Shown piece by piece: positions 3,225 to 39,742 of a stretch of 64,000 bases of DNA. Origin of the DNA: Geomonas limicola. GTDB taxonomy: Bacteria; Desulfobacterota; Desulfuromonadia; Geobacterales; Geobacteraceae. The stretch is taken from the NCBI RefSeq assembly GCF_014193675.1, contig NZ_BLXZ01000001.1, forward strand, positions 124,001 to 188,000. The letters run 5' to 3'. Each line of letters opens with the position of its first letter. The stretch's first letter is position 1. The notes under the pieces are model-generated. The model saw nothing but the letters and a program-made list of their open reading frames with translations. It was not told the DNA's origin and ran no database searches. Both the position numbers and the translations under genes were made by a program.

Positions 3225-3454
3225 GACACCCTCCTTAACTCCGGTTGGCCGACCGTCTTATGAAAAACCATTCACTTGTATCAAGACGGCAGGGGTTGTC
3301 AAGATAGCCTGCAGGGGATGCAAAACCAGGTTCTAGGCAGCATTGACTTTTGTTAGCACTCTCTTAGAATTCACGAGTCGCGACTTCAATGAACAACTTC
3401 CAGCGCTCAAACACCGGCCGCGGACCCGGGCGCCTAACGGGAAAGGAGCACCAG

Positions 3455-3947: not shown

Positions 3948-4379
3948 ATGCGAGCACACCTTCTCAAACCTCTGGTCAGCTGGGCCGTTTTTTTGGCTTG
4001 GTACCTCTGTTTCACCGCGAGCCTGGACCACGCCGAACTGGTAGCCGGGGCGGTTTTTGCCGCAGGGGTGCTGCATCCGATGCATTACCTCAACCGCGAC
4101 CAGGTTGCGGCGCTTCGCTTCCGGCTCCCCTGGCTCATCCCGCTCGTGAAGATCCCCTGGGCCATGTTCCAGGAATCCTGGCTCCTCTGCCTTGCCCTAG
4201 TTGCGCGCCTGGTGCACGGCGAGGCGCAGAGGGCTTTCCACGAATGGCACAGTGTCGGGCCGGCGGACTCAGCGGGCACTGCCCGCCGCGTGCTCCTCAC
4301 CTTCGGCGTCTGTATCACCCCCAACAGCTACCTGGTGTATCTGGACCCGCAGCGCGGCGTCGCCGTGGTACGGCAACTG
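3948..4379 (+). CDS. Na+/H+ antiporter subunit E-like (MnhE) protein, 3' end disrupted
   Basis: About the first 140 residues read as an MnhE/MrpE-like protein (PF01899): two N-terminal membrane segments, then LIPLVKIPWAMFQESW, an FGVCITPNSYLVYLD segment matching the ITPGT region of the family, and a short soluble tail. Family members are usually around 160 residues. After about position 4375 the frame continues without a stop but becomes an Arg/Gly/Pro-rich shadow translation, then runs straight into the next glycosyltransferase (open to 5798). The sensible continuation is in the +1 frame (next entry). The marked end is therefore a judgement about where the plausible protein stops, not a stop codon. 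A gene caller may report one 616-residue fusion from 3948 to 5798, which I think is an artefact. Confidence 0.6.
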
Positions 4380-4641
4380 GACCGCGGGAGGCGCATCCTT
4401 CCGCAACGTCGAGGGGTCCTTCTACGATTTCGCCGCGGAACGATTTCGCGGCACCTCACGGGAGGCGCTCACCGCACCACCCGACGACTGGGGGGGGCGT
4501 GCCGCCATCGCCTGGGCGCGCGAGCTCGCAAGCGGCGGGGCTTACAACCCGCAGGCCGAGCGCCTGATCGACGTGGCGCAGGCCCTGGAGGCGGCCTACC
4601 GCCAGGCCCAGGATCCCGCCCTGCACGGAAAACTCGCATGA
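4366..4641 (+). pseudogene. Out-of-frame 3' gene fragment, possibly a Gfo/Idh/MocA oxidoreductase C-terminus
   Basis: In the frame +1 relative to the MnhE-like gene, about 90 residues look like real protein (SFYDFAAERFRGTSREAL, then PPDDWGGRAAIAWARELA, ending QDPALHGKLA). They stop with TGA at 4639-4641, which overlaps the ATG of the next gene (4638) as ATGA, the arrangement of a real operon junction. The fragment has no start codon of its own. The sequence reminds me of the C-terminal segment of Gfo/Idh/MocA family sugar oxidoreductases, but this is recollection, not a search result. It is either the end of the MnhE-like gene after a one-base frameshift or the remnant of a second gene joined by a deletion near 4366-4380. 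Confidence 0.45.
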
Positions 4642-5798
4642 ACGAGGGGGGAGCGGGCGAAGTCACCTTGACGCTCCCGCGCAAGGTGCTCATGACTGCC
4701 GACACCGTCGGCGGCGTCTGGACCTTCGCCATGGAGCTAGCGCGCGGTTATCTCCCCTACGGGATCGAAGTGCTGCTGGCCACCATGGGGCCGCTCCCCA
4801 CCCCCGAGCAGCGCCGCGAGGCCGCGAGCCTCCCCAACGTGACACTCTTTGAAAGCGGCTACCAGCTCGAGTGGATGGAGGACCCCTGGGACGACGTACA
4901 GCACGCGGGGTCCTGGCTTTTGTCCCTCGAGGACCGGCTGCAACCGGACCTGGTGCACCTGAACGGGTACGCCCACGCCGCCCTCCCCTGGCGTACCCCG
5001 CGGCTGGTCACCGCCCACTCCTGCGTACTCTCCTGGTGGACCGACGTGAAGCAGAGCGAGCTCCCGGGACGCTTTCGGCACTACCGGCAGGAGGTCGCCC
5101 AGGGTCTGGCCGCGGCGGACCTGGTCACCGCTCCCACCCTCGCGATGCTTCAGGCGCTCGAGTCCCACTACCTGGCGCTCCCCAGGGTGCGGGTGATCCA
5201 CAACGCGCGCTGCCCTGACCTCTATTTCCCGGTAGCCAAGGAGGCCTACCTCCTTTCGGTGGGCCGCATCTGGGACGAGGCGAAGAACCTCGCCGCGCTG
5301 GCCGGGGTGGCTTCCTACCTCCCCTGGCCGGTCTATGTAGCCGGCGACCCGGTGCACCCCGACGGCGGCCGCGTCCAGCTGGAGAACGTGACCCTGCTGG
5401 GGAAGCTCTCGCCACGCCAGTTGGCCGGGTGGTTCGAGAGAAGCTCGATCTACGTGCTTCCCGCGCGCTACGAGCCGTTCGGCCTGTCGGTCCTGGAAGC
5501 TGCCCTGTGCGGCTGTGCCCTGGTACTCGGAGATATCCAGAGCCTCAGGGAGCTCTGGGACGAGGCCGCCCTCTTCGTCCCCCCGGACGACCTGGGCGCC
5601 CTCTCGCAGGCGCTTACGCTTTTGTGCTCTGACCACGACCTGCGCAGTTCCCTGGCCCAGAAGGCACTGCATCGCAGCGCGCGTTTCAGTCCGACCGTGA
5701 TGGCCGCCCAGTACCTGGAGGCCTACTCGGTAGCAGCGGCACATTTTCACCAGTCTTCCTCCTCTGAAGAGAAAAAGGTAAAGCCATGCATTTTGTAA
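4638..5798 (+). CDS. Glycosyltransferase family 4 (GT-B) protein
   Basis: The 386-residue GT-B glycosyltransferase starts at the ATG at 4638, coupled by ATGA to the preceding fragment. Visible features are a glycine-rich N-terminal segment (TADTVGGVWTFAMELARG), LLSVGRIWDEAKN at the start of the C-terminal nucleotide-sugar domain, and the E-x7-E signature EPFGLSVLE followed by GCALVLGD. These match PF13439 plus PF00534. It would transfer a sugar from a nucleotide donor to an unknown acceptor in the cytoplasm. It is first in a run of four glycosyltransferases and overlaps the next by 13 bases. It lacks a membrane segment. Confidence 0.85.
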   Translation: MNEGGAGEVTLTLPRKVLMTADTVGGVWTFAMELARGYLPYGIEVLLATMGPLPTPEQRREAASLPNVTLFESGYQLEWMEDPWDDVQHAGSWLLSLEDRLQPDLVHLNGYAHAALPWRTPRLVTAHSCVLSWWTDVKQSELPGRFRHYRQEVAQGLAAADLVTAPTLAMLQALESHYLALPRVRVIHNARCPDLYFPVAKEAYLLSVGRIWDEAKNLAALAGVASYLPWPVYVAGDPVHPDGGRVQLENVTLLGKLSPRQLAGWFERSSIYVLPARYEPFGLSVLEAALCGCALVLGDIQSLRELWDEAALFVPPDDLGALSQALTLLCSDHDLRSSLAQKALHRSARFSPTVMAAQYLEAYSVAAAHFHQSSSSEEKKVKPCIL

Positions 5799-6973
5799 TG
5801 TTCTACCACTCGCTGCTCTCGGACTGGAACCACGGCAACGCCCATTTCCTGCGGGGGGTGGCCAGCGAACTCTTGAGCCGGGGACACCAGGTCGAGGTCT
5901 ACGAGCCCAAGGACAGCTGGAGCTACCAGAACATGATGCGCGACCGCGGCGAACCGGCGTTGCGCCGTTTCAAGGAGGTTTACCCGCAGCTCGAGGGACG
6001 GACCTACCAACCCGAGCGACTCGACCTGGACCGGTTGCTTGCCGGCGCCGACCTCGTGTTGGTGCACGAGTGGAACGATCTCGCCCTGGTCCGGCACCTT
6101 GGGGAACACCGGAAGAAACATCCGCACTACCGGCTCTTGTTCCACGACACCCACCACCGCAGCGTCACCGACCGGGACTGGAGCGCGAACTGTGACCTCT
6201 CCGGCTACGACGGGGTGCTCGCCTATGGCAGGAAGATCAGGAACCTCTACCTGGCCTCCGGGAGGGTGCGCCAGGCCTGGGTCTGGCACGAGGCTGCCGA
6301 CGTCAGGGTTTTCTATCCCCAGCCTGCGCTGGAGAAAACCGGGGACCTGGTCTGGATCGGCAACTGGGGGGACGAAGAGCGCAGCGAGGAGCTGCGCGAA
6401 TTCCTGATCGAACCGGTACGCCGCCTGGGGCTCAAGGCGATGGTTTACGGGGTGCGCTACCCCGACCAGGCACTGCGCGAGCTCAAGCAGGCCGGCATCC
6501 GCTATGGCGGCTGGCTTCCGAACTTCGAGGTCCCCCGGATCTTCGGCCGTTACCGGGTCACGGTGCACATCCCCCGGCGCCCCTACGCGACGAAGCTCCC
6601 GGGGATTCCCACCATTCGCCCCTTCGAGGCCCTGGCCTGCGGTATCCCCCTGGTCTGCTCGCCCTGGGAGGACTGCGAGCACCTCTTCACCCCGGGAAGC
6701 GACTACCTGGTTGCGAGCGACGGCGAACAGATGGTGCGGCAGCTCGAAAAGCTGCTCGCCGACCCACAAGGGGCGGCAGCCCTCGCGGAGCACGGGCGCC
6801 AGACGGTCGTGACCCGGCACACCTGCGGGCACCGGGTCGACGAACTGCTCGCCATCTGCGACGAGATTGGCGATCAGCAGCCCGGGATCGGTATCCCCGT
6901 GAACACGCGGTCCGACCAGTTGGCCGAGCCAGTACGGGACGAGAGGCACGGACCGGTGCAGCACGAAGCCTGA
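5786..6973 (+). CDS. CgeB-like glycosyltransferase
   Basis: The 395-residue protein resembles the CgeB / 'spore maturation' glycosyltransferase group (GT-B; PF13524 C-terminal domain). Diagnostic stretches are SLLSDWNHGNAHFLRGV at the N-terminus, DLVWIGNWGDEERSEEL at the start of the second domain, and IRPFEALACGIPLVCSPW near the nucleotide-sugar site. It starts inside the 3' end of the preceding glycosyltransferase (13-base overlap) with AAGGTAAAGCC before the ATG. About 45 residues at the C-terminus (QQPGIGIPVNTRSD onward) are low in conserved pattern and may be a readthrough tail. CgeB proteins are usually single genes; here they form an array with the next two genes. Confidence 0.8.
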   Translation: MHFVMFYHSLLSDWNHGNAHFLRGVASELLSRGHQVEVYEPKDSWSYQNMMRDRGEPALRRFKEVYPQLEGRTYQPERLDLDRLLAGADLVLVHEWNDLALVRHLGEHRKKHPHYRLLFHDTHHRSVTDRDWSANCDLSGYDGVLAYGRKIRNLYLASGRVRQAWVWHEAADVRVFYPQPALEKTGDLVWIGNWGDEERSEELREFLIEPVRRLGLKAMVYGVRYPDQALRELKQAGIRYGGWLPNFEVPRIFGRYRVTVHIPRRPYATKLPGIPTIRPFEALACGIPLVCSPWEDCEHLFTPGSDYLVASDGEQMVRQLEKLLADPQGAAALAEHGRQTVVTRHTCGHRVDELLAICDEIGDQQPGIGIPVNTRSDQLAEPVRDERHGPVQHEA

Positions 6974-7060
6974 TCCCCCGTACCTGCGACGCACGCCACG
7001 AACTACCACCACGCGAGCTGCCGCGAACATCACCTACCCAAGGAAAGGAATCAACACGCC

Positions 7061-8173
7061 ATGCCAGCCCGCCTCGAAATCGCCTTCTTCGCCTCAAGCC
7101 TGGTCTCCTCGTACTGGAACGGTGCCGCCACCTACTACCGTGGTATGGTGAAGGCCCTCAGCGACCTGGGGCACCGCATCACCTTCTTCGAGCCCGACGC
7201 CTACGAGCGCCAGTCGCACCGCGATCTGCCTGACCCCGACTGGGCCCGGGTCGTAGTGTACCGCCCTACCCTGGACGACGTGCACCGCTCGCTGTCGCGC
7301 GCCGCGCGGGCCGACCTGGTCATCAAGGCAAGCGGCGTCGGGGTCTTCGACGAGGTACTGGAGCGCGAGGTCCTCTCCCTGAAAGGTCCCGGTACCCGGG
7401 TGATCTTCTGGGACGTGGATGCACCGGCCACCCTGGAGCGCGTGCGGTGCAACCCGCAGGACCCCTTCCGTCCCCTGATTCCGAAGTACGACCTGGTGCT
7501 CACCTACGGCGGCGGACAACCGGTGGTGGACCGCTACCGTGCCCTGGGGGCCCGGGAGTGCGTCCCCATCTATAACGCCCTGGACCCTGCGACCCACCAC
7601 CCGGTGGCCGCCCAGCCGCGTTTCAGATCCCAGCTCTCCTTTCTGGGCAACCGGCTGCCGGACCGCGAGGCCCGGGTCGAGGAGTACTTCCTGAAGGCCG
7701 CCCGGCTCTTCCCCGGCGGGGATTTCCTGTTGGCCGGCAGCGGCTGGGGGGACAAGCAGTTCCCCCCCAACGTGAGGTACCTGGGGCACCTGGGGACCGC
7801 CCAACACAACGCCTTCAACTGCAGCGCCGGGGCCGTGCTCAACATCTGTCGCGATTCCATGGCCGAAAACGGTTTCTCGCCGGCGACCCGGGTCTTCGAG
7901 GCGGCCGGCGCCGGGGCCTGCATCGTCACGGATTGCTGGACCGGGATCGAGCAGTTCTTCGCGCCGGGTCGCGAGATCCTGGTCGCCGATTCCGGGGAGG
8001 CGGTGGCGCGCCTACTTGGGGAACTCACTCCCGAGCGCTGCGCCGCCATCGGCGTCAATGCCTACCACCGGGTAATGGCCCAGCACACCTACGCCCACCG
8101 TGCCCGACAGTTCGAGGAGGTGCTGGGGGTCGGCCACAAAGCGACGCCGACACTGGCCGGGGTGGCTCCATGA
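7061..8173 (+). CDS. CgeB-like glycosyltransferase, second copy
   Basis: The 370-residue paralogue of its neighbours has an N-terminal SYWNGAATYYRGMVKAL, a central SFLGNRLPDRE, and a C-terminal RVFEAAGAGACIVTDCW followed by FFAPGREILVADSG. These are CgeB-family marks (PF13524). AAGGAAAGGAATCAA precedes the ATG. Its stop overlaps the next start as ATGA (8170-8173), so the two are translationally coupled. Donor and acceptor are unknown. The repeated NGxATxYRG motif in this array may be a shared donor-binding or catalytic feature. Confidence 0.82.
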   Translation: MPARLEIAFFASSLVSSYWNGAATYYRGMVKALSDLGHRITFFEPDAYERQSHRDLPDPDWARVVVYRPTLDDVHRSLSRAARADLVIKASGVGVFDEVLEREVLSLKGPGTRVIFWDVDAPATLERVRCNPQDPFRPLIPKYDLVLTYGGGQPVVDRYRALGARECVPIYNALDPATHHPVAAQPRFRSQLSFLGNRLPDREARVEEYFLKAARLFPGGDFLLAGSGWGDKQFPPNVRYLGHLGTAQHNAFNCSAGAVLNICRDSMAENGFSPATRVFEAAGAGACIVTDCWTGIEQFFAPGREILVADSGEAVARLLGELTPERCAAIGVNAYHRVMAQHTYAHRARQFEEVLGVGHKATPTLAGVAP

Positions 8174-9240
8174 AGCTGGTGATCTTCGGGCTGACCATAA
8201 CCTCCTCGTGGGGCAACGGCCACGCCACCACCTACCGTGGCCTGGTGCGCGAACTGGAGCGGCGCGGCCACCAGGTAACCTTCTTCGAGCGCGAGGCCCC
8301 CTGGTACTCAGCGAACCGCGACCTCCCCGAGCCACCCTACTGCCGGACCATCCTCTACAACTCCATCGACGACTGCTTCGCCACCTTCGCCTACGAGATC
8401 GCCGGTGCCGACTGGGTGATCATCGGCTCCTATGTCCCGGACGGGATCGAGGCGGCCGAACGGGTCACCGACCTGAAGGATGTGCCGGTCGCCTTCTACG
8501 ACATCGACACCCCGGTGACCCTCGCCAACCTGGCCTCCGGCACCTGCCAGTACCTCCGCCCGGAATTGATCCCCCGGTTCCAGCTCTACCTCTCCTTTAC
8601 CGGCGGCCCCACGCTGCGCGAGATCGAGGACCGCTACGGTGCGCTTGCGGCGCGTCCGCTGTATTGCAGCGTCGACCCTGAACTGCACTACCCGGAGCCG
8701 AAGATCGCGCAGCGCTGGGACCTGGGCTACTTGGGGACCTACAGTCCGGACCGCCAGCCCCCGCTGGAGCGGCTGTTCTGCGCCCCAGCCCGGGACTGGC
8801 CTAAGGGGCGCTTCGTGGTTGCGGGCCCCCAGTACCCGGCGGGGATCGACTGGCCCCTTAACACCCAGCGCATCGAACACTTGGCGCCCCAGGAGCATCG
8901 TGGCTTCTACTGCGCGCAGCGCTTCACGCTGAACGTCACCCGCGCCGACATGGTCCGCGCCGGATATTCCCCGAGCGTGCGGCTTTTCGAGGCGGCAGCC
9001 TGTGCCGTCCCGGTGATCAGCGACCGCTGGGAAGGGCTGGAAAGTTTTTTCGCTCCCGGTAGCGAAATCCTCGTGGCCGACGGCCCGGCCGACGTCATGC
9101 GCTACCTGCGCGAGGTTCCGGAACCCAGGCGCCGCGAACTGGGCGCGAAGGCTCGTGCCCGGGTGCTTACCTCTCATACCGCGGCACACCGTGCGGCCGA
9201 ACTGGAGGAATACCTGGTGCGGGCCGCCTTCAGCTACTGA
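8170..9240 (+). CDS. CgeB-like glycosyltransferase, third copy
   Basis: This 356-residue protein starts at the ATG at 8170, which overlaps the previous stop. A longer in-frame extension back to 7933 is a shadow of the previous gene and is rejected. It shows the same plan as its neighbour: SSWGNGHATTYRGLVREL at the N-terminus, LGYLGTYSPDRQP at the domain boundary, RLFEAAACAVPVISDRW and FFAPGSEILVADGP near the end. It is followed 12 bases later by a methyltransferase with AGGAAGCCCT before its ATG. The three copies are clearly paralogous and probably act in one pathway on related acceptors. Confidence 0.85.
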   Translation: MKLVIFGLTITSSWGNGHATTYRGLVRELERRGHQVTFFEREAPWYSANRDLPEPPYCRTILYNSIDDCFATFAYEIAGADWVIIGSYVPDGIEAAERVTDLKDVPVAFYDIDTPVTLANLASGTCQYLRPELIPRFQLYLSFTGGPTLREIEDRYGALAARPLYCSVDPELHYPEPKIAQRWDLGYLGTYSPDRQPPLERLFCAPARDWPKGRFVVAGPQYPAGIDWPLNTQRIEHLAPQEHRGFYCAQRFTLNVTRADMVRAGYSPSVRLFEAAACAVPVISDRWEGLESFFAPGSEILVADGPADVMRYLREVPEPRRRELGAKARARVLTSHTAAHRAAELEEYLVRAAFSY

Positions 9241-9252
9241 TCAGGAAGCCCT

Positions 9253-10032
9253 ATGACCGACTACCTCGACCCGACCATTGCCGCGCTCGGCCCCTGGTTC
9301 CACAACCTGCACCTTCCTGACGGCCGCCAGACCGCACCCGACCACTACCTGGGGGACTTCCCCAACTTCAAGTGGCAGGAGATAGCCGGGCATATCCCCG
9401 CGGATCTCTCCGGGTGGCGCGCCCTGGACGTCGGCTGCAATGCCGGGTTTTACAGCTTTGAACTCGCCAAACGGGGCGCCCGGGTGCTCGGCATCGACCT
9501 GGACCCGCGCTACTTAGACCAGGCACGCTGGGCAGCCGGGGAGTTCGGTTTAAGCTCCCGGGTCGAGTTCCGCTGCCAGCAGGTCTACGACCTCGTCCGG
9601 GAAGAGGAGGAGTTCGACCTGGTCCTTTTCATGGGGGTGCTCTACCACCTGCGCTATCCCCTTTTGGGGCTGGACATCGTCACCCAAAGGGTACAAAGGC
9701 TCCTGGTGTTCCAAACCCTCACCCTGCCCGGGCGCGAGGTAGCGGACCAGCCGGACCACTGGATCAACGAGCGCGACGCGCTGCTGCAGACGGGGTGGCC
9801 CAAGGCGGCCTTCATCGAGCACCGCTTCGCAGGCGACCCCACCAACTGGTGGATCCTGAACCACGCCTGCGTGGAGGCGCTCTTGCGCTCCTGCGGGATG
9901 AAGATCACTGCGTACCCGGGACACGAGGTCTACCTGTGCGAGCCTGATCCCGGACGCCCGAGCTGCATGACCACCTGGAACCGGGGCGAGTTCCTCTCGG
10001 CCACCGGCCAGCCCTGGCAGCAAACGACCTAG
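9253..10032 (+). CDS. SAM-dependent methyltransferase (TIGR04290-like)
   Basis: The 259-residue class I methyltransferase has motif I LDVGCNAGFYS at 58-68, an acidic D after LGID, and GVLYHLRYPLLGLD, a segment shared with CmoB-type enzymes. The overall sequence matches my memory of the TIGR04290 (Rta_06860) methyltransferases, which are found beside glycosyltransferases in several proteobacteria. It probably methylates, or otherwise alkylates, a sugar or glycan product of the adjacent glycosyltransferases. CmoB itself (tRNA wobble carboxymethylation) is less likely because the expected CmoA partner is absent. Confidence 0.8.
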   Translation: MTDYLDPTIAALGPWFHNLHLPDGRQTAPDHYLGDFPNFKWQEIAGHIPADLSGWRALDVGCNAGFYSFELAKRGARVLGIDLDPRYLDQARWAAGEFGLSSRVEFRCQQVYDLVREEEEFDLVLFMGVLYHLRYPLLGLDIVTQRVQRLLVFQTLTLPGREVADQPDHWINERDALLQTGWPKAAFIEHRFAGDPTNWWILNHACVEALLRSCGMKITAYPGHEVYLCEPDPGRPSCMTTWNRGEFLSATGQPWQQTT

Positions 10033-14115: not shown

Positions 14116-14844
14116 CTAGTGGTTGTTGGTGCGCTCGGCGGTTGCCGTCTCGCCGGTCTCCAGGATCTGTTTGAGCCGTTTGAGATCCTCCTCGATCTGC
14201 GCCCCGGTAATGGCATTGGCCATCTTGGCTGCCGCCTTGCCCGGGCCGTCGCCCGGCGGATAGTAGCGGATGCTGACCTTAAGTTCGGTGCCGCGGTCGC
14301 CTGGGGCTTCGCGGAATTCCACGGTCCCCTCGTTAGGAAGCGCAGCCTCGCCGGTGGAGCGCCACAGGATGAGCTGCCCCGGGTAATCCGCCACCATTTC
14401 GGCGTCCCACTCGACCGTCACGCCGGCAGGTCCCCGCGCCTTCCAGTGCGAGGTGTTCTCGCCGGTCACCTCGACCGACTCCAGGTGACGCATGAAACTG
14501 GGAAGGTTCTCAAGGTTGCGCCAGAACTCGTAGACCTGCTGGGGAGTCCGGTTGATGGTGACGAACGTCTCGATGAGCACGCCCCCTGCAGCATTCTCGC
14601 TGGTGTCGACCCCCAGCGCCTGATAAAGGCCGCAGAACCCGGTCTTGCCGCGATACAGGAACATCCCTCCCGCAACCATCATGGCGAGCCCCGGCAGGTA
14701 GCGCCGGCCGGTTAACGCCTTGATGCCCGTGACCGCCAGCGCGGCCCCCCCCACCAGTGACGCGTTTCTTTCGGTGTGACCAACGTTCACCTTCCGGCTT
14801 TTCATGCGTGCCCCGATCCGGGACACGGCCTCGGTCAGTTCCAT
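14116..14844 (-). CDS. SRPBCC-family protein with N-terminal DUF2892 membrane segment
   Basis: The 242-residue fusion starts at the ATG at 14844, preceded by a perfect AAGGAGG. An in-frame extension to 14916 lacks a site. Residues 1-85 contain two short hydrophobic stretches and resemble the DUF2892 (YgaP transmembrane) domain. About residues 95-225 form a START-like SRPBCC domain (polyketide cyclase/dehydrase family 2), with [19 protein letters not shown] and [17 protein letters not shown]. The combination is common in bacterial stress clusters, is probably membrane tethered and lipid binding, and has no assigned substrate. Confidence 0.85.
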
Positions 14845-15223
14845 ATCGATCCTCCTTGTAGGTATGTGGGTAGTAACGTCAACTGCCGGGACACGACAAT
14901 TAGAGATATTTAACATGTTTCATTTCGTTTGCAACCAGGTCGGCAGATTGCCGCGCCCCGGAACCTCCGCGCTGGTGGGACCATCCGGTACCGACCGGAA
15001 AGATGGCGCAGAGTATTCCCACGCCGACGGTCCATCCCCTGGAGCTCTTCATAGAAAAGACCAGGTGGTAACAGACACGGAAGCCTCGGCTCTGAAAAAT
15101 GATAAAAACTGGAGTTTGTGACTTGGAACACTTACCGGATGGCGAAATTACCCTATGCTCGGGCAGTCTCAGATTCCCGCCACGGAGGTGTACGGCGGGA
15201 GCTCAACAACGGGAGGGCGCTGC
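14845..15223. other. Intergenic region between divergent genes
   Basis: About 380 bases separate the minus-strand SRPBCC gene from the plus-strand DUF922 gene, so promoters in both directions must lie here. The part near 14880-14930 is AT-rich. I could not assign a convincing -35/-10 pair or an operator, and I see no RNA gene. Confidence 0.4.
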
Positions 15224-16131: not shown

Positions 16132-17502
<1,371 letters not shown>

Positions 17503-23875: not shown

Positions 23876-25411
23876 TTACAACTTCCCTACCAGTTTAAGA
23901 AGAATCACAACCACGTCCCCAATGTCCACTAGCCCGTTAGGGTGTGACTGACCGTCTACGTAGGGCGCCACGTCCAGCCGTGCCAACTGTTCGGGAGTCG
24001 GCGTTGTCCCCCGGGTCGCGATTTCGAGGGCGAGTTGGGCATCTGCCAGGGTTAGAGGAACCTGAGACGGGGTAAGCACCTGTATGGCAGTCGTCGCCGT
24101 AGCAAGGTTCCCGGAGCGGTCGTTGGCACGCACGGTGATCAGGTTCTGCCCCAAGGCAAGACCGGTGAGTTGGAGACTCCAGGAGCTGGCGATTACCGTG
24201 GCATTGAGCGGGGCCTGGGAGCCAATCTGCACGGTCACCGAGGCTACTTGGTCATCGTCTTGTACAGATCCGGAGAGGAGCTGGCTGGCCGAGGTGCTCG
24301 GGGAGGTGGCCGGGTTGATACTGAGGGTGGGCGGCGTGGTGTCGTTGAGCACCTGGACCACCCGTTCGACCGCGGTCCCGAGGTTCCCAGCGGCATCGTA
24401 GGCCTTAGCACTCCAACTGTAGTTACCGTTGGCGACCCGACTGGTGTCCCAGGCGTAGCTGTAAGGGGCGGCGTTCAAGGTCGCCTGCAGCAAGCCGTTC
24501 AGGTAGAGTTCAACCCGACTAACGCCGACGTTGTCGCTGGCCGTAAGAGTGACCGGGACGCTGCCCTTCACCACCTGACCGGCGCCGGGAGCGCTAAAGG
24601 CGACGATCGGGGGGACAGTGTCGTTGAATACGGCGACGTTTATCGAAGACTCAGCGACGTTGCCGGCAGCGTCGAAAGCCTTGGCGCTGAGGGCATAGCT
24701 GCCATTAGCAAAGATAAGGGTGTTCCAGGTGAAGAGATACGGGGCGCTGTTGCTGGTTGCCTGCAGGACACCATTTACGTAGAACTCGACGCGGGCCACT
24801 CCGACGTTGTCGGTAGCGGAGGCGCTCACCGTAACACTCCCAGCCAGAGTGGCTCCGGAAAGCGGTGCAGCGATGGACAACACCGGACGCTCGGTATCGG
24901 TGGTCGACACCGGATCCTGGGCCGACACGCTTACCGTTATCGGGTCGGAAACCAATTCACCGCCGGTGTTATCGGTGGCCTTTACCGCCACCTGGTAGTC
25001 GCCGGGAGCGAGTTGTGCGGTGCTCCAGGAGAATGCGAAGGGAGTGCTGGTGGACTCGCCCTGGGAGACGGAATTGACCAAGAACTGCACCCGAGTAATC
25101 TGTACCCCGTCCGGCACCTGCACCCGTATCGCGGTGATGCCACTTACCGGCAGAGGATCGGTGGCGGTATTCACCACGACCTCGGGCGGGTTGGGATCAG
25201 CATTGTCCACCACGCTGAAACTAATGCTCTCAAGGCCAGTCGCTCCATAGGAGGTGACCGCGAAGAAATGGGACGCCGCAGGATCGAGTTGGGATATGGC
25301 TGCCGAAGCGGCAGAAGGAAGCAGCAGGCAGACGGCCAGTGCCCAAAATACCAAGAGCTGTGCGGGGAGCCTAATGGGGCAGGTATTGGTAAACGGTGGT
25401 GAGATTTTCAT
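23876..25411 (-). CDS. Secreted Ig-repeat protein with dockerin-like C-terminus
   Basis: The 511-residue protein starts at the ATG at 25411 after GAGGGCACC. A signal peptide ends near SAASAA (about 37). It contains Ig-like repeats of about 92 residues, each with a TLSIAAPLSGATLAGSV-type start and a conserved ASDNVGV-RVE-YVNG-L-A core. The C-terminal 60 residues (QLALEIATRGTTP, then LVDIGDVVVILLKLVG) look like a dockerin-type or EF-hand-like calcium site. It would be an extracellular adhesin or matrix protein. It shares its repeat family with the next upstream gene, and a GEMM-I riboswitch with a terminator lies just upstream. Confidence 0.88.
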   Translation of the reverse strand: MKISPPFTNTCPIRLPAQLLVFWALAVCLLLPSAASAAISQLDPAASHFFAVTSYGATGLESISFSVVDNADPNPPEVVVNTATDPLPVSGITAIRVQVPDGVQITRVQFLVNSVSQGESTSTPFAFSWSTAQLAPGDYQVAVKATDNTGGELVSDPITVSVSAQDPVSTTDTERPVLSIAAPLSGATLAGSVTVSASATDNVGVARVEFYVNGVLQATSNSAPYLFTWNTLIFANGSYALSAKAFDAAGNVAESSINVAVFNDTVPPIVAFSAPGAGQVVKGSVPVTLTASDNVGVSRVELYLNGLLQATLNAAPYSYAWDTSRVANGNYSWSAKAYDAAGNLGTAVERVVQVLNDTTPPTLSINPATSPSTSASQLLSGSVQDDDQVASVTVQIGSQAPLNATVIASSWSLQLTGLALGQNLITVRANDRSGNLATATTAIQVLTPSQVPLTLADAQLALEIATRGTTPTPEQLARLDVAPYVDGQSHPNGLVDIGDVVVILLKLVGKL

Positions 25412-25460
25412 GGTGCCCTCACGGTCGGTGTGCTTTACCCATCTGCTTGCCTGGAAACTG

Positions 25461-25509
25461 AAAACAGCCGGGCCGCACACCTCGATCGGTAGTTCGGCAT
25501 CCCGGCTGT
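25461..25509 (-). terminator. Riboswitch expression-platform terminator (RS1)
   Basis: On the minus strand, ACAGCCGGG (the 3' strand of the aptamer, plus-strand 25501-25509) can pair with CCCGGCTGT (25464-25472), followed by TTTT. The hairpin uses bases that belong to the aptamer, so aptamer folding and termination exclude each other. That is the design of an ON switch when ligand is bound. Confidence 0.75.
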
Positions 25510-25984: not shown

Positions 25985-28828
25985 TTACCTGTAGAAGCTC
26001 ACCGACTGGGTCCTTGTGTTACCGGCGGCATCGTAGGCCTTTACCGTAGCCGTATGGGTACCCGTACTGCTCACGGTCCAGCTGTAGGAGAGCGATCCGG
26101 AAGCAACCTCTGTTTTCAGGACGCCGTCTACGTAGAGCTGGAATTTGGTGACCCCGACGTTGTCGGTTGCCGAGGCTTTGATATTCACAACGCTGCTGGA
26201 GCGTGACAGCGACATCGATTTAATGGCGGGCAGCGTAGTATCGATCAGCACGGAAGCCGACTTGGCGGCGGAGACGTTGCCGGTGGCATCCTTGGCCCAA
26301 GCGTAGGCGGTGCGCAGCCCGGTACCCGAGAAGGTGAAGCTGGTTGGGGCGGAGGCGTTCCAGCCGACGGCCGAGGAACTGGGGGCCGTAGCGCTTTCAC
26401 TGATCAGGTATCCGGCGACGGCAACGTTGTCGCTCGCGCTCAGGCTGGTTATCGCCACCGTGGTGGAGTTGACATTGGCCGGCAGGGTGAAATTACCAAG
26501 CGTGGGGGCCTGTACATCGTTGAAAACGCTTACCGTGATTGCGCTCGAGGTGCCGATGTTACCGGCCATGTCGTATGCCTTGGCGGTCAAGATGTAGGAG
26601 CCGTTGGTCGCCGCTAGTGTGTTCCAGATGAAGCTGTAAGGGGCGCTGGTAGCGCTGCCCAGAAGCACGCCGTTGGCGTAGAGTTCGACTCTGCTGACCC
26701 CCACGTTGTCGCTGGCCGTGACCTGGATGGTGGCAGTCCTGCTCACGACGCTGCCGTTGCTCAGGGAGTTGAGGGAGACCAGCGGGGCACTGGTATCGTT
26801 GAAGACCGTCACGGCGATACCGGCGGACTGTCCCACGTTGCCGGCCGCGTCATAGGCCTTGGCGGTCACCGTGTAGGATCCATTTGCGTTGGAAAGGGTG
26901 TTCCAGGAGAACGCATACGGGGCAGAGGTGGCGCTACCCTGCAGAATGCCGTTCAGGTAGTACTCGACTTTGGTCACTGCCACGTTATCGCTGGCAGCGA
27001 TTTGCACCGTTGCGGTTTGCCCGAGAGTGCTACCGGCGCTCGGAGAGGTGATGGAAACGGAAGGGGGAGTCGTGTCATTGAATACGATCACGGTGACGCT
27101 GGCAGACTGTCCCACATTGCCGGTCGCATCGTAGGCCTTGGCGCTCAGGGTGTAGGTGCCGTTAACGCTGGAAAGGGTGTTCCAGGAGAAGGTGTACGGA
27201 GCCGACGTCGCGCTCCCCTGCAGGGTGCCGTTCAAGTAATACTCGACCTTGGTTACCCCAACGTTGTCGCTGGCGGCAACCTGCACGGTTGCGCTCTGGC
27301 CGATAGTGCTGCCGGTACTCGGGGAACTGATGGCTACCGTGGGAGCGGTCGTATCGTTGAAGACACTCACGGTGACGCTGGCGGACTGTCCTACATTGCC
27401 GGCCGCATCGTAGGCCTTGGCGCTCACAGTATGGCTGCCGTTAGCGGTGGAAAGGGTGTTCCAGGCGAAGTTGTAGGGAAGGCTGGTTGCGGTCGCCTGC
27501 AGAGTGCCGTCAAGGTAGTACTCAACTTTGGTTACACCAACGTCGTCACTGGCGGACGTCAATACTGTTACCGTTTGACTGAGGATGCTACCGGAACTGG
27601 GAGCTACAATGGAGACCGTAGGAGCGGAGGTGTCGTTAAAGACGGTAACGGCAACATTGGATGAGACCCCTACGTTCCCTGCTGCGTCGTAAGCCTTAGC
27701 AGTCAGGATGTGCGCGCCGTTTGCACTGGCAAGGGTGTTCCAGGAAAAAGTGTAGGGATTGTTAAGACTGCTCCCCTGAAGAATACCATCAATGTAGAAT
27801 TCCACTTTAGTTACAGCAACATTGTCAGTAGCAGCGGCCAGAACTGTAACATTACCACCAACAGTAGCACCTGAATATGGAATGGTAATTAATGCAGCAG
27901 GGGGAGTTGTATCATTAGCAACGACTACTTGAATTGTCGGTGCATTGCCCACATTACCAGCGGCATCGTAAGCTTTAGCATCAATAACATGAATGCCGTT
28001 GCCGTACGAGAGAGTGTTCCAGGAATATGCAGTCGAAATTTGATTTGTTGCCAGGACCAGAACGTTATCAAAAAATAGTTCAGTCCGTGTCACACCAACA
28101 TTATCGCTTGCTGAAATGGTAACAGGAACAGTCCCATTTACTGATCCATTATTGGTAGGATTAGTAACTACTACTGTAGGAGGTGTAAGATCATTAACCA
28201 ATGAGACCGTGACAGGAGTGGAAATACCTTCATTGCCAGCAGCATCAAGTGCCCGTGCGGTGATTGTGTAGGCACCGCCATTAAGGGAGGAGGTGTCCCA
28301 CGAAAAAACATACGGTGAGGTAGGAGTGTCACCCACCAAGTTTCCGTTAACAAAAACTTTAACATTGGTTACAGCTACATTATCTGTCGCGTTAACGGCT
28401 ATTGAAACAGACCCATTGACGAGACTGCCATTAACTGGAGTACTAATGGAAACAACCGGAGGAGTTAACTCTTTTATTTGGACAACGTTGGAAAAGACGC
28501 TTTCATAACCAGAAGCGTTGATAGAGGTTACGGCGAAATAGTAAATAGAACTTGCATCCAAGCCGTCGAGAGTCGTAGTGTTCAGGTTGCCGACTGATAC
28601 CGGCGAGTTGCCCTGAGTAGCTCCCGTGCCATTGAAGGGGAGAGTGAGGCCGCCACGTTGGTAGTAAACATTATATCCTACGACATCAGGATCGGAACTT
28701 GCCGGCCAAGATAATTCAACGCTCGCCGCTAAGCATACACTAGAATAGAGCAGTACTGCGACAAGCAGTGTCAGAATTAAGGCAGCAGCTCTTACACTCT
28801 GCCATTTTTCTTCTCTCTTCGTGGCCAT
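25985..28828 (-). CDS. Large secreted fibronectin/Ig tandem-repeat protein
   Basis: The 947-residue protein starts at the ATG at 28828 behind GGGAGGCGAA. Other in-frame starts (28840, 28846) are less well placed. A signal peptide ends near VCLAAS (about 35). A fibronectin-III-like domain (about 40-120, SSDPDVVGYNVYYQR) is followed by seven Ig-like repeats of about 93 residues (ATDNVAVTKVEFYIDG, WNTLASANGAHILTAKAYDAAGN) and two divergent end domains. The central copies repeat at an exact 279-base period. It would be an extracellular, fibre-like or adhesive surface protein. A GEMM-I riboswitch lies just upstream, and codon use shifts from AT-rich to GC-rich along the gene. No PEP-CTERM or other sorting tail is seen. 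Confidence 0.9.
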   Translation of the reverse strand: MATKREEKWQSVRAAALILTLLVAVLLYSSVCLAASVELSWPASSDPDVVGYNVYYQRGGLTLPFNGTGATQGNSPVSVGNLNTTTLDGLDASSIYYFAVTSINASGYESVFSNVVQIKELTPPVVSISTPVNGSLVNGSVSIAVNATDNVAVTNVKVFVNGNLVGDTPTSPYVFSWDTSSLNGGAYTITARALDAAGNEGISTPVTVSLVNDLTPPTVVVTNPTNNGSVNGTVPVTISASDNVGVTRTELFFDNVLVLATNQISTAYSWNTLSYGNGIHVIDAKAYDAAGNVGNAPTIQVVVANDTTPPAALITIPYSGATVGGNVTVLAAATDNVAVTKVEFYIDGILQGSSLNNPYTFSWNTLASANGAHILTAKAYDAAGNVGVSSNVAVTVFNDTSAPTVSIVAPSSGSILSQTVTVLTSASDDVGVTKVEYYLDGTLQATATSLPYNFAWNTLSTANGSHTVSAKAYDAAGNVGQSASVTVSVFNDTTAPTVAISSPSTGSTIGQSATVQVAASDNVGVTKVEYYLNGTLQGSATSAPYTFSWNTLSSVNGTYTLSAKAYDATGNVGQSASVTVIVFNDTTPPSVSITSPSAGSTLGQTATVQIAASDNVAVTKVEYYLNGILQGSATSAPYAFSWNTLSNANGSYTVTAKAYDAAGNVGQSAGIAVTVFNDTSAPLVSLNSLSNGSVVSRTATIQVTASDNVGVSRVELYANGVLLGSATSAPYSFIWNTLAATNGSYILTAKAYDMAGNIGTSSAITVSVFNDVQAPTLGNFTLPANVNSTTVAITSLSASDNVAVAGYLISESATAPSSSAVGWNASAPTSFTFSGTGLRTAYAWAKDATGNVSAAKSASVLIDTTLPAIKSMSLSRSSSVVNIKASATDNVGVTKFQLYVDGVLKTEVASGSLSYSWTVSSTGTHTATVKAYDAAGNTRTQSVSFYR
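26550..28470 (-). repeat. Tandem Ig-domain coding repeats, 279-base period
   Basis: The stretch GACTGTCC[CT]AC with its downstream CATCGTAGGCC recurs at 26826, 27105 and 27384, exactly 279 bases (93 codons) apart. More diverged copies continue toward 28470, one roughly every 280 bases. The middle copies are nearly identical at DNA level, which indicates recent duplication or gene conversion. It lies inside the large Ig-repeat gene. Confidence 0.85.
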
Positions 28829-28871
28829 TTCGCCTCCCATTGCCAAAACGCACTACGCGATTGGCTGGTAT

Positions 28872-34956: not shown

Positions 34957-36537
34957 CTAATCAACCAAAGAACGGACGGTTCTTAGAGCCAACACCAATT
35001 GGTTCATGGTTAGTGCGACCAGCGTGTCGGACCCAATGCTTACCGCACCCAAGGCGTCGGCGATCTTTTTCTGTTTATCGTCGTCAGCTCCGGAAATGAG
35101 CACGCAAGGGCCCGGGTGGCGAACTAGGATGCGTACGGCGTTAGCAAACCAGCTTTTCCACCGTTTATCCACCGGGACCGTGACTATCCGCGCTGAGGTT
35201 AGTGCTTCGGCTTCGATCAGGCAGTCCTCAGGCAGATAAATCTCGAAAGAGGTGTAGGGAAAGCTCTCCAGCAGAAATGTCACGTCCTCCGCCCAACGCC
35301 CTACCCCGACCGCAACGAGAATACGGATTTGGGCAGCGTCGTGATTGCGTTCAAACCACGGAGCCATCTTGCGCGCAAGGTCCTGTACTCGGCGGCCAAT
35401 GGCAACGGTGGCCGCCTGTTCAACCCTGCAATCGGGAAGCGCTAACACCCGGTACATCACCTCTGCATAGCCCTCCGGTGTTTGGGCGAGTTTGCTGCCG
35501 CAGGCCTCTACCTTGCGCCGAATAGGGTCGATTTTGAACTGGGACCTGAACAGGGTAAGTAACTGTAACTTCAGGTTCATTACCTGGGTGATGTCCACCC
35601 TTTGTTCTTCGAAGGTCGCTCCAGCGCCCTCCAGAGCCTGGATCAGTTGATCCGCATGGAACGGTGCAATGGCCGCATAGGGAACGTCTTGATAACAGTA
35701 GAGCTCGAGCCCCTTGAAGAGCCAGGGTTTTTCGAGGGCCAGTCCCAAAAACGCATTGCGAGTCAATTCGTGGTCCACGTGATAGCCAAGCCCCAGGGGT
35801 ACCCAAAGCTGTTCGGGCTTAAGCTCGAGTATGGTCTTCTCGATAAGTGCCGCCCAGTCCTGGTGCTCCTCGGGACCAGCCGTGTGGTTCACGAAGGCCC
35901 CCACGGCCTTCTTGTTACGCTGGTACCAGGCAAGGGTCCAGGGCTCATCACTGAAACGAAGCGGCGCCTCACGCAAGGGGTGGGTGTAGTGGCACGCGCC
36001 CACGTGCCGCGCCCAAAGCACAGACTCGTCCCGGCGCAAACCGGAAACAGTCTCCGGGTCGAAGTAATCCCGGCCTATGGTTATCTGCGTGGTAAAGTTG
36101 GTGACGCCAACCAGGGTGACGATGTGGAATTCGCACTCGCGCCGGCGTAGCCACATGATGCCCCCCACGCTGAGGGCAGCATCATCCATGTGCGGCTCAA
36201 GCACCACGACCCGCTGTCGCCCGGCAGGGTGCGCACCAGGCACCAGTTCGCAAAGCGACAGGTCTATAAAACGCAGCAGTGCCCGGTCCAGGTCCGTGCC
36301 GAGACGCTGACGCAGTGCACAGACGCTCAACTGCCCGTCGATGGCCTCCCAGACCCGGCGCTCCCCTTCGTCGAGGCGGGCCAAGGGATTCGACGAAGTG
36401 AGGAAGTAGAGCGCCTCGCCCTGGAGCCGGTAATGCGGCAAACGAACGGGCACGGCAGCGTCGCTGGGCGTCCCCCCTGGAAACAGTTCCGGATGCAGCT
36501 CTTTTGGTCGCGAAACAAATCCTGCAGACTCTGCCAT
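34957..36537 (-). CDS. PIG-L deacetylase with PqqD-like N-terminal and Rossmann-like C-terminal domains
   Basis: The 526-residue protein starts at the ATG at 36537, joined as TGATG to the flippase stop. A GTG one codon upstream is possible. Residues about 30-105 (LARLDEGERRVWEAIDG, LRQRLG) resemble a PqqD-like winged helix. Residues about 108-340 form a PIG-L N-acetylglucosamine deacetylase-like domain with the zinc motif EPHMDDAALSVGG and GYHVDHELTR. The last 150 residues (ILVAVGVGRWAEDV, VLISGADDDKQKKIADAL) look like an extra alpha/beta domain. It would deacetylate an amino sugar or lipid-linked glycan. Confidence 0.82.
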   Translation of the reverse strand: MAESAGFVSRPKELHPELFPGGTPSDAAVPVRLPHYRLQGEALYFLTSSNPLARLDEGERRVWEAIDGQLSVCALRQRLGTDLDRALLRFIDLSLCELVPGAHPAGRQRVVVLEPHMDDAALSVGGIMWLRRRECEFHIVTLVGVTNFTTQITIGRDYFDPETVSGLRRDESVLWARHVGACHYTHPLREAPLRFSDEPWTLAWYQRNKKAVGAFVNHTAGPEEHQDWAALIEKTILELKPEQLWVPLGLGYHVDHELTRNAFLGLALEKPWLFKGLELYCYQDVPYAAIAPFHADQLIQALEGAGATFEEQRVDITQVMNLKLQLLTLFRSQFKIDPIRRKVEACGSKLAQTPEGYAEVMYRVLALPDCRVEQAATVAIGRRVQDLARKMAPWFERNHDAAQIRILVAVGVGRWAEDVTFLLESFPYTSFEIYLPEDCLIEAEALTSARIVTVPVDKRWKSWFANAVRILVRHPGPCVLISGADDDKQKKIADALGAVSIGSDTLVALTMNQLVLALRTVRSLVD

Positions 36538-38072
36538 CACTTATCCCCTTGCGATTGAAGTCTCCCCGGTAGCGCCCGTTTGATCCGCCCCAGCAGGAGC
36601 CAGCGGGACATAGTCTCCACATCCTCGGGATCGAACAAGGTAAAGCGCAGTGCGAGGGTGCCGTAACAAGCGGCGTAGAGTGCGAAGTAAACCAGGACGT
36701 GGAACCCGTGCAAAAGCTCCTTTTGCGGGATCAGGGTGGCCAGGTACCCTCCGGTCCCCCAGAGCAGCACGCCGGGCAGGACCCCGGCCACAACCGCGAC
36801 CAGCAGGATCGAGCCCAGGCGCCGCCAGGGAAAGACCCGAGAAAGCTTCAGTTTGAAGATGCGGGCAATGACGAAAAGCAGGTAACCGGTCCAGAGGTAC
36901 ATGCTGAGCACCGAGACCAGCGCCGGGCCGGACCACTCGAAGTAACGCACGGAAACGGCGCTAAGCACAAGACTGACGGGGAGTTGCACCAGGTACCCTA
37001 TGAGGACCACGCGATTTTTGCCGGTGGATTCGACGATGGCGGTGTACGAGGTCACCTGCAGCGGGAGCATGAGCAGATAGATATGGAAGATTTCGGCGCT
37101 TTGCAGGTACTGGTCGGAGTACAAAAGGGCGATGAACTCTCTGCCCAGGATTTCCAGGAAAACAAAGGCCGGGAAGATGATGAGCGACGCCTTGACGATG
37201 GTGTGATGCCACCCTTCGATAAGCGCGCTGGAACTTCCCCTGTCCCACTGTGCCACCCAATCCGGCAGTTTGAGCTGCGAGATGGTGCTGGCGAGGATGT
37301 GCACCAGCGGTATCTCGATGGCTCCCCTCGAGTACAGGGCAAGCCGGTCCGGGTTCATGTAGTGGGAGATCACGTACTTGTCGAGTTCGCGACCCGCGTA
37401 CCAGCAAAAGGCAAGGCTTCCAAGGGGAAACGAGTAGCCGATCTGTTCCCCCAGCGGTACTGCGGGACTCGTGGTGCCGCGGTTCGCCGAGACCGCCTTG
37501 AGAGCGACCAGCACCGAGACGACGAAATCAAAGAAAAAGGATGCGGTGAGGATCAGGATCACCGTGGAGAGTGCGACAGACAGAAGTGCGCAGGCCATCA
37601 TGGCCGCCAGAAACAGAACCGAGCGCAGTATCTCGATCTTGGCCAGCAAGAGTGTGGACCTGGCATACATCAGAATAGGCCGGGTAAGCTGCGAGGAGAG
37701 GAAAAAGAAGACTCCGAACGCTGCGTACATCACGAATTCGCCCAGGTGGTGGTTGTTGAAAAAGCGGGCAAGGTACTCCCGTCCCCCAAAAAGGCTGATG
37801 GCGCCCAGACACCCCACCGCCAGCATAAGCAGGTAGGAACGCGCGATCAGCCGGCTCTTGTCATAAGCCTTGGGAAGGAAATAGGTAATGCTGGACGGTA
37901 TCCCGAGGGTGAGCAGGAAGCCGGCCAGTTGCACCAGCATGCTGGTCTGCACGTAGGTCCCGTAATCTGCCTTGGACAGGGATCTGGCCAACATGATGGA
38001 GATCAGCATGACCGTGGACGACCCGAACGCGCGGCCTAGCATCAGGATGATAGTTTTGTCGATGCTCTTCAT
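36537..38072 (-). CDS. Oligosaccharide flippase (Wzx-type, MOP superfamily)
   Basis: The 511-residue membrane protein has about 12-14 hydrophobic segments and the polysaccharide biosynthesis protein start SMIMLARSLSKADYGTYVQ (PF01943/PF13440). Wzx proteins flip undecaprenyl-linked repeat units to the periplasm. It is the only flippase in the locus. It lies downstream of the O-ligase, phosphotransferase and methyltransferase, 17 bases after the methyltransferase stop, and overlaps the PIG-L gene by one base. Confidence 0.88.
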   Translation of the reverse strand: MKSIDKTIILMLGRAFGSSTVMLISIMLARSLSKADYGTYVQTSMLVQLAGFLLTLGIPSSITYFLPKAYDKSRLIARSYLLMLAVGCLGAISLFGGREYLARFFNNHHLGEFVMYAAFGVFFFLSSQLTRPILMYARSTLLLAKIEILRSVLFLAAMMACALLSVALSTVILILTASFFFDFVVSVLVALKAVSANRGTTSPAVPLGEQIGYSFPLGSLAFCWYAGRELDKYVISHYMNPDRLALYSRGAIEIPLVHILASTISQLKLPDWVAQWDRGSSSALIEGWHHTIVKASLIIFPAFVFLEILGREFIALLYSDQYLQSAEIFHIYLLMLPLQVTSYTAIVESTGKNRVVLIGYLVQLPVSLVLSAVSVRYFEWSGPALVSVLSMYLWTGYLLFVIARIFKLKLSRVFPWRRLGSILLVAVVAGVLPGVLLWGTGGYLATLIPQKELLHGFHVLVYFALYAACYGTLALRFTLFDPEDVETMSRWLLLGRIKRALPGRLQSQGDK

Positions 38073-38089
38073 GGGTTCCGGGTGTTACC

Positions 38090-38782
38090 TCATATCTTGC
38101 GGTACTGGGCAATCCACTTGTAGGCAAAGCGTTCCAACACCGGGACCCGGGCCAAGGATGAGTACAAGCCGGCCAACCCCCTCGAAACCCGGAACAGAGT
38201 CTTGGTCTTGGGAAGATAGGTGCCCACCACCTTCTCCAGCCGCATGGTACTACTCATACGGGGCAGTTCGTCGAAGCTGTTGCCCAGTTCCTTGAGAAAC
38301 CGCTTGTTGTCAAACTCGATGACGACGCGTCCCCCTTTCTTGCAAACCCTTTCCATCTCTGCGACCAGCGCAATCTGCCGGTCCAGGGAAAAGGCGGCAA
38401 AGAGGTGGATGAAATTCAAGGAGATGACATGATCAAAGCTCTCGTCGTCGAAGGGAAGCTCGAAGGCGTTACCTTGGATCAGCCGGACGTTGTCGATTCC
38501 CAGGGTTTCCATCTTCGCCCTGGCCTTATCCAGCATTGCCGCCGTGGCATCCAGCCCCACCATGCTCTTCACCGACCGGGCGAAGAACATGATGCCACTT
38601 CCGGTTCCGGTGCCGACGTCGATGATCTCCATCTCCCGGGTAGGACACAGCAACTCCCTCATGGCCTGGTGGCGCAAGTGGTCAAGGTAGAGTTGCCCTT
38701 CCTCCGTGTAGCGCAATGCGTCATAGTCAGAGGCCAGTAGTGTGTAATCCTGAACTCCGTCTTTTCCCATCTCTGTGCTCAT
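38090..38782 (-). CDS. Class I SAM-dependent methyltransferase
   Basis: The 230-residue protein has motif I IDVGTGTGSGIMFF, an acidic loop VGLDATAAM, IQGNAFELPFDDESFDHVIS and a post-motif III region typical of UbiE/COQ5-like enzymes (PF08241). It probably methylates a sugar or lipid-linked intermediate of the polysaccharide. Its ATG overlaps the stop of the phosphotransferase-like gene by four bases (ATGA at 38779-38782), so the two are coupled and may act on the same product. Confidence 0.85.
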   Translation of the reverse strand: MSTEMGKDGVQDYTLLASDYDALRYTEEGQLYLDHLRHQAMRELLCPTREMEIIDVGTGTGSGIMFFARSVKSMVGLDATAAMLDKARAKMETLGIDNVRLIQGNAFELPFDDESFDHVISLNFIHLFAAFSLDRQIALVAEMERVCKKGGRVVIEFDNKRFLKELGNSFDELPRMSSTMRLEKVVGTYLPKTKTLFRVSRGLAGLYSSLARVPVLERFAYKWIAQYRKI

Positions 38783-39732: not shown

Positions 39733-39742
39733 GATTCCTCCA

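Follow-up and report, generated by a model that had tools for sequence, protein, structure and literature searches.

The mycobacterial methylmannose polysaccharide cluster comprises ManT, methyltransferases and a hydrolase. It resembles a group of genes in a stretch of Geomonas limicola DNA (the window, 64,000 nucleotides, G000:C1:124001-188000 within a 5.23-Mb assembly), where a GT4 glycosyltransferase, three CgeB-like glycosyltransferases (CgeB1, CgeB2 and CgeB3) and a TIGR04290 methyltransferase are encoded head to tail. As in the mycobacterial cluster, a GT4-type transferase, a sugar methyltransferase and, in related loci, a glycosidase-like protein occur together, and the GT4 and CgeB3 models closely match ManT (7qsg), a likeness seen at the level of the fold. 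Unlike the mycobacterial cluster, the system discussed here combines four different transferases with sugar-nucleotide enzymes. On balance, we favour the interpretation that a conserved nine-gene operon, of which the array is the 3' half, makes a soluble methylated oligosaccharide, and that its normal product is probably not made in G. limicola.

Other described systems are more distant. In Wzx/Wzy polysaccharide clusters, too, a single operon encodes multiple transferases together with sugar-nucleotide enzymes, but neither the five genes nor their near neighbours encode a flippase or polymerase, the nearest being located at 36537-41116 on the other strand. GT4 shares the GT-B fold and the E-x7-E pair with the MshA/BshA/PimA-type GT4 enzymes, whereas CgeB1-3 lack the first glutamate in all aligned orthologues. 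CgeB1-3 are linked by a common domain name to the CgeB spore protein of Bacillus, which has a role in the maturation of the spore coat. Among solved structures, the tRNA carboxymethyltransferase CmoB is closest in sequence to the methyltransferase. However, the match to the CmoB model TIGR00452 reaches 64.6 bits against a cut-off of 275 and covers residues 38-162, and the window gene is found in a sugar-metabolism setting. The methyltransferase is a member of NCBIfam TIGR04290 (meth_Rta_06860), and some of these clusters contain radical SAM genes of TIGR04295 (B12_rSAM_oligo); neither model description assigns a pathway. In agreement with a preliminary description of the array, which had assigned no known pathway, no paper assigning a product was found in the full-text literature searched, the coverage of which excludes most subscription journals. 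A study on bacterial UDP-apiose synthases states that their flanking genes are not conserved and does not describe the nine-gene cluster (PMC5607165). In another report, the passage on SMb20231, a sugar-binding ABC protein listed in a table, contains nothing on the cluster (PMC12542648).

Scanning one genome per species with the methyltransferase alignment confirmed at least 564 relatives, of which the best 80 were kept, so that the sample is biased toward the sequence of the window. Matches to all four transferases are present at the methyltransferase locus in 65 of these 80 loci. This count includes the G. diazotrophica locus (L029), although its CgeB1 and CgeB2 bear deletions. The 65 loci belong to Bacteroidota (22), Pseudomonadota (16), Desulfuromonadota (7), Actinomycetota (7), Verrucomicrobiota (3), Acidobacteriota (2), Planctomycetota (2), Gemmatimonadota (2), Cyanobacteriota (1) and Chloroflexota (1), with one further locus from a "Deltaproteobacteria" bin and one from an unidentified bacterium. 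The phyla, at least ten, were assigned from record titles, and for several of the loci the source is a single contig from a metagenome bin. The closest named match among the matches listed is Geomonas silvestris, with a methyltransferase that is 89% identical.

Neighbour clustering and a directed count revealed four further genes at the cluster, for an NAD-dependent epimerase (EPI1), a second epimerase (EPI2), a zinc dehydrogenase and a Gfo/Idh/MocA oxidoreductase (Gfo). For 60 loci, the sequence in front of the methyltransferase extends over 9 kb or more; 44 of them contain all nine genes, and in 42 of these 44 the order is EPI1-EPI2-zinc-Gfo-GT4-CgeB1-CgeB2-CgeB3-methyltransferase. The preliminary description had overlooked the upstream half and the Gfo remnant; what remains of the operon in this strain is its 3' half rather than a complete unit. 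In the window, the five genes and the sequence in front of them are arranged as follows:

3948-4380, + strand: 5' part of an antiporter gene of an Mrp/Mnh-type operon, truncated by the deletion; judged MnhE-like from its position and our reading
4380/4381: deletion junction, at which 9,396 bp of G. silvestris sequence are absent (blastn against L161 and genus search)
4381-4641, + strand: Gfo/Idh/MocA remnant, last 86 codons; translation nearly identical to the C terminus of G. silvestris Gfo
3948-5798, + strand: open frame of 616 codons, produced by the deletion, which begins in the antiporter fragment, crosses the Gfo sequence out of frame and continues into GT4
4638-5798, + strand: GT4 glycosyltransferase; PF13692, PF13439 and PF00534 above cut-off
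5786-6973, + strand: CgeB1, CgeB-like glycosyltransferase; PF13524, 134.5 bits (gathering cut-off 25)
7061-8173, + strand: CgeB2, CgeB-like glycosyltransferase; PF13524, 133.1 bits (cut-off 25)
8170-9240, + strand: CgeB3, CgeB-like glycosyltransferase; PF13524, 133.7 bits (cut-off 25)
9253-10032, + strand: TIGR04290 methyltransferase; 341.1 bits (curated cut-off 300), profile positions 3-226 of 226

The homology to G. silvestris (L161, which is identical to L027 across their overlap) ends at window position 4380, skips 9,396 bp and restarts at 4381. The skipped segment contains MnhB, Proton_antipo_M, EPI1, EPI2, the zinc dehydrogenase and all of Gfo except the last 86 codons. EPI1, EPI2, the zinc dehydrogenase and a complete Gfo are therefore missing upstream in the window, while the five downstream genes are present. 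The sequence at 3948-4380 is 81% identical to that of G. silvestris at the DNA level as far as position 4380, and a Pfam scan of the encoded protein matched no family. In G. silvestris, this antiporter gene is followed by the MnhB and Proton_antipo_M genes (L161 3911-8108), and the antiporter system at this place has probably been lost through the same deletion. When the genome of the strain itself was searched with Gfo, the only good match was the remnant (55% over residues 273-348). The rest of the genome yielded no orthologue of Gfo or of the EPI2 fusion, the closest remaining matches reaching 27% and 34%, respectively. A relocated 9.4-kb segment was not found in the assembly either, where the DNA matches consist of three stretches of 36-59 bp.

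The genus provides the context for this loss. TIGR04290 is present in 16 of 19 genus genomes, and all nine genes are retained in 14 of the 16 (13 of the 14 genomes fetched, together with L161), with the zinc gene matched in part in two of these 14. G. diazotrophica (L029, the same locus as L177, 6370-10741) is independently truncated within Gfo and has further deletions in CgeB1 and CgeB2. This second case also bears on the suspicion that the deletion is an assembly error and that the living strain has a complete operon, as only a single assembly, and no reads, were available. The junction lies in the interior of a 931,772-bp contig, there is no obvious run common to both flanks, and the missing 9.4 kb are nowhere in an assembly of stated 100% completeness. 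Together with the truncation of the same gene in a second Geomonas, this makes an assembly error highly improbable.

Another question is whether the remaining half is still used. The frames of GT4, CgeB1, CgeB2, CgeB3 and the methyltransferase show dN/dS values of 0.110, 0.149, 0.089, 0.115 and 0.116 against G. silvestris, compared with 0.122 for the dead Gfo remnant, 0.226 for the antiporter fragment and 0.035-0.094 for four neighbours. Polarized with 13 outgroups, the residue changes on the window and G. silvestris sides are 4 and 6 for GT4, 5 and 8 for CgeB1, 4 and 3 for CgeB2, 9 and 3 for CgeB3, and 4 and 7 for the methyltransferase. A shortened operon might still work, with the five genes using housekeeping nucleotide sugars to make a methylated glycoside of simpler structure under the antiporter-operon promoter, and with GT4 possibly tethered to the membrane through the 616-codon frame. 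All five frames are intact with dN/dS between 0.09 and 0.15, GT4 retains its own ATG, and a promoter-like site at 3343-3370 (one found, against a mean of 0.3 in shuffled sequence) could drive the remaining genes. However, an equal dN/dS (0.12) is seen in the dead Gfo remnant, so that the low values predate the deletion, and the deletion is too recent for maintenance and decay to be told apart. Moreover, the other truncated Geomonas, one of the 16, has accumulated more deletions in CgeB1 and CgeB2. We therefore regard a working shortened operon as rather doubtful, and in our judgement the balance of probability is on the side of a loss of the normal product in this strain.

The individual enzymes give some indication of what the complete operon may do. 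All five window genes lie on the + strand and belong to their families above cut-off, which bears out the head-to-tail array of the preliminary description. The overlaps that it mentioned are present between GT4 and CgeB1 (13 nt) and between CgeB2 and CgeB3 (4 nt), but CgeB1 and CgeB2 are separated by 87 nt, and CgeB3 and the methyltransferase by 12 nt. For the alignments, rows with stops and weak or partial matches were removed, and 68 rows for GT4, 67 for CgeB1, 80 for CgeB2, 82 for CgeB3 and 89 for the methyltransferase were retained from 91 sources. In GT4, the E-x7-E pair (E279 and E287) is present in 68/68 orthologues, and the predicted structure has a GT-B fold (pLDDT 93.2), so that both hallmarks of the GT4 retaining glycosyltransferases are found. 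In CgeB1-3, the second glutamate of the pair is invariant, but the first position is never a glutamate (67, 80 and 82 aligned sequences), and the complete E-x7-E signature is thus absent from these sequences. The predicted structure of CgeB3 has a GT-B fold as well (pLDDT 95.5). A comparison of the CgeB3 sequence with solved structures gave mainly matches to designed barrels, which were judged spurious, and a model-based fold search was used instead.

CgeB2 and CgeB3 are 39% identical, whereas CgeB1 is 26% identical to either. Each copy had been said to carry the motif NG-x-A-[TH]-x-Y/F-RG, which is correct for CgeB2 (WNGAATYYRG) and CgeB3 (GNGHATTYRG) but not for CgeB1 (NHGNAHFLRG), which deviates from the motif in two of its positions. 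Among orthologues, the motif is found in none of 67 CgeB1, 73 of 80 CgeB2 and 46 of 82 CgeB3 sequences. A private expansion of paralogues was considered and rejected, as CgeB1, CgeB2 and CgeB3 form separate orthologue groups across phyla. In three loci from the phylum of the window (L014, L015 and L016), a fourth CgeB-like gene (45-48% identical to CgeB3) and a nucleotidyltransferase gene are found at the cluster.

In the phylum of the window, the genes co-occur more often than expected by chance. Of 297 genomes, 5 carry TIGR04290 above cut-off, and these same 5 have a CgeB2 orthologue (E<=1e-140); one more has a distant CgeB2 relative alone (36%), and another a below-cut-off methyltransferase alone. 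The pairwise distances of the five proteins correlate with r of 0.65-0.86 (57 loci), although shared host history also promotes such a correlation. Independent occurrence in relatives, which the preliminary description had named as an argument against its proposal, is therefore mostly absent. Exceptions include the loci L073 and L080, in which TIGR04290 is accompanied by genes for an inositol-phosphate synthase, a glycosidase-like protein and a histidine phosphatase, and transferases are missing from the locus. A search of 72,556 plasmid records gave 131 with the methyltransferase and 148 with CgeB3. The carriers are mostly Sinorhizobium and Rhizobium, with Roseomonas, Paracoccus, Azospirillum and others; seven regions were retrieved for inspection, one of them without annotation.

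Of the upstream enzymes, EPI2 is close to CDP-tyvelose 2-epimerase (E 6.8e-89), and in 29 of the 80 loci it shares one frame with a glycosidase-like domain. The term glycosidase-like is taken from the stand-alone relative in L014 (PF11790, 21.7 bits, cut-off 21) and from record annotations; in L047, the domain that precedes EPI2 was not recognised by a Pfam scan. The best family of the Gfo protein is inositol 2-dehydrogenase (118 bits, far under the cut-off of 355), and the matches of the zinc protein include scyllo-inosose 3-dehydrogenase (93.9 bits, far under the cut-off of 450). Less constant companions in the 80 loci are genes for inositol-phosphate synthase (14), NUDIX (13) and histidine phosphatase (11) proteins, a UDP-xylose-synthase-like gene (6), nucleotidyltransferases (3) and TIGR04295 radical SAM proteins (2). 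In 10 of the 80 loci, a protein of about 94 residues without a Pfam match is encoded near the cluster (for example, L017 9572-9856).

For the complete operon, we infer a pathway in which EPI1, EPI2, the zinc dehydrogenase and Gfo would make or adjust unusual activated sugars. In the cytosol, GT4 would then begin a chain on a small soluble acceptor, CgeB1-3 would lengthen this chain to a short oligosaccharide, and the TIGR04290 enzyme would attach a methyl group. The presence of four transferases suggests a product of about four sugars that is modified by methylation. In G. limicola, a recent deletion would have taken the first four genes and left five intact but orphaned frames, and the normal product is therefore probably no longer made. 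What the data show directly is the conserved module, the order of its genes and, at the level of the assembly, the deletion; the roles of the enzymes, the solubility of the product and the loss of function are inferred. The top fold matches of the GT4 and CgeB3 models include sucrose-phosphate synthase, BshA, MshA and the methylmannose polysaccharide mannosyltransferase, which act on small soluble acceptors. No flippase, polymerase or initiating transferase was found among the recurrent neighbour families that could be named. Together with the GT-B neighbours, this makes a soluble methylated oligosaccharide the best guess. Of the small methylated glycoside or glycolipid that had been proposed earlier, a small methylated glycan made by the conserved module is still the best reading, with a soluble oligosaccharide favoured.

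Several observations weigh against this interpretation. One or more of the nine genes are absent from 16 of the 60 loci. PglA, PimA and WaaG, which use lipid-linked acceptors, score just slightly lower in the fold comparison, so that the fold cannot decide between soluble and lipid-linked acceptors. As to the loss in this strain, the five remaining frames are all intact and their dN/dS values are low. The search of the genome for EPI1 and the zinc dehydrogenase was made at the DNA level alone, and other epimerases of the strain (at best 34% identical to EPI2) might substitute.

With respect to the acceptor, two other products have to be considered. One is a methylated glycoside with inositol or a different cyclitol as its core, for which the galactosyl cyclitols of plants are an analogue at the level of the idea. 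The inositol-phosphate synthase and histidine phosphatase companions, the association of the methyltransferase with both and with the glycosidase-like gene in L073 and L080, and the below-cut-off resemblance of the Gfo and zinc proteins to cyclitol dehydrogenases are all in line with such a product. The likeness of GT4 to MshA and PimA also fits, but it is general for GT4 enzymes. The synthase domain PF01658 is present in 25 of 40 other cluster-bearing genomes but absent from the remaining 15, and it is absent from all 19 Geomonas genomes. An inositol core was therefore downgraded as a general answer: without import, inositol could serve as acceptor in no more than some of the carriers, and we consider a cyclitol glycoside unlikely. 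The other candidate is a surface polysaccharide or lipopolysaccharide, which the transferases would decorate with the help of export machinery encoded elsewhere. PglA and WaaG are among the fold neighbours of GT4, and the window itself contains a polysaccharide locus with flippase, Wzy_C and sugar transferase genes (about 31.5-63.9 kb):

31515-63894, - strand: polysaccharide locus with PGA_cap, GT2 and GT4 transferases, hexapeptide transferase and AAA_31
36537-38072, - strand: flippase, in the polysaccharide locus
39743-41116, - strand: Wzy_C protein, in the polysaccharide locus
62515-63894, - strand: Bac_transf sugar transferase, in the polysaccharide locus

The earlier remark that no flippase or polymerase is near is thus correct for the immediate flanks, but not for the window as a whole. 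However, the polysaccharide locus is more than 20 kb away and on the opposite strand, and no export gene recurs among the neighbour families that could be named. A role in surface glycan decoration therefore appears improbable, and we retain the soluble methylated oligosaccharide as the preferred product.

The near-constant gene order across many phyla, together with the lack of a product in the literature found, indicates a widespread glycan that may be undescribed. It is conceivable, but put forward here only tentatively, that the product represents an undescribed class of soluble methylated oligosaccharides, occurring in at least ten phyla and on plasmids (of rhizobia, Roseomonas, Azospirillum and Paracoccus), which might act as a protectant or carrier. 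Some Geomonas would be in the process of losing the operon, and the deletion may have created a membrane-tethered GT4. Intact carriers include named isolates, among them G. silvestris and Pontibacter and Ramlibacter species. Since the two Geomonas genomes without the first genes are natural comparison strains, the product could be sought by comparing the metabolites of intact and truncated strains.

The stress-type genes of the window, which had been presented as the setting of the array, include SDR, DUF2231, PEBP, DUF4142, hemerythrin and zinc alcohol dehydrogenase genes, among others. This setting is partly common to G. silvestris, but the downstream genes differ in six other Geomonas/Citrifermentans loci, and it appears to be mostly lineage-specific. 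In 90 other neighbourhoods (83 of them outside Geomonas/Citrifermentans), PEBP, DUF2231 and hemerythrin genes were found in one neighbourhood each and DUF4142 genes in four. DUF4142 has 99 matches in 40 genomes selected from 73 non-Geomonas genomes; five of the matches are in cluster loci (L081, L095 and L103), against about 0.4 expected from the ratio of locus to genome length, which points to a weak enrichment near the clusters, with two of the three loci being close relatives. In L014-L016, the cluster is accompanied by homologues of two window genes, the alcohol dehydrogenase gene (63%) and the one at 14116-14916 (45-49%). A sigma-54-type response regulator is encoded at 16132-17502 on the - strand, and members of this family, which is common, are also found near the cluster in L019, L027, L045, L066, L081, L085 and L087. 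Further downstream, two large proteins with Big_7 immunoglobulin-like repeats are encoded on the - strand (23876-25480 and 25985-28846).

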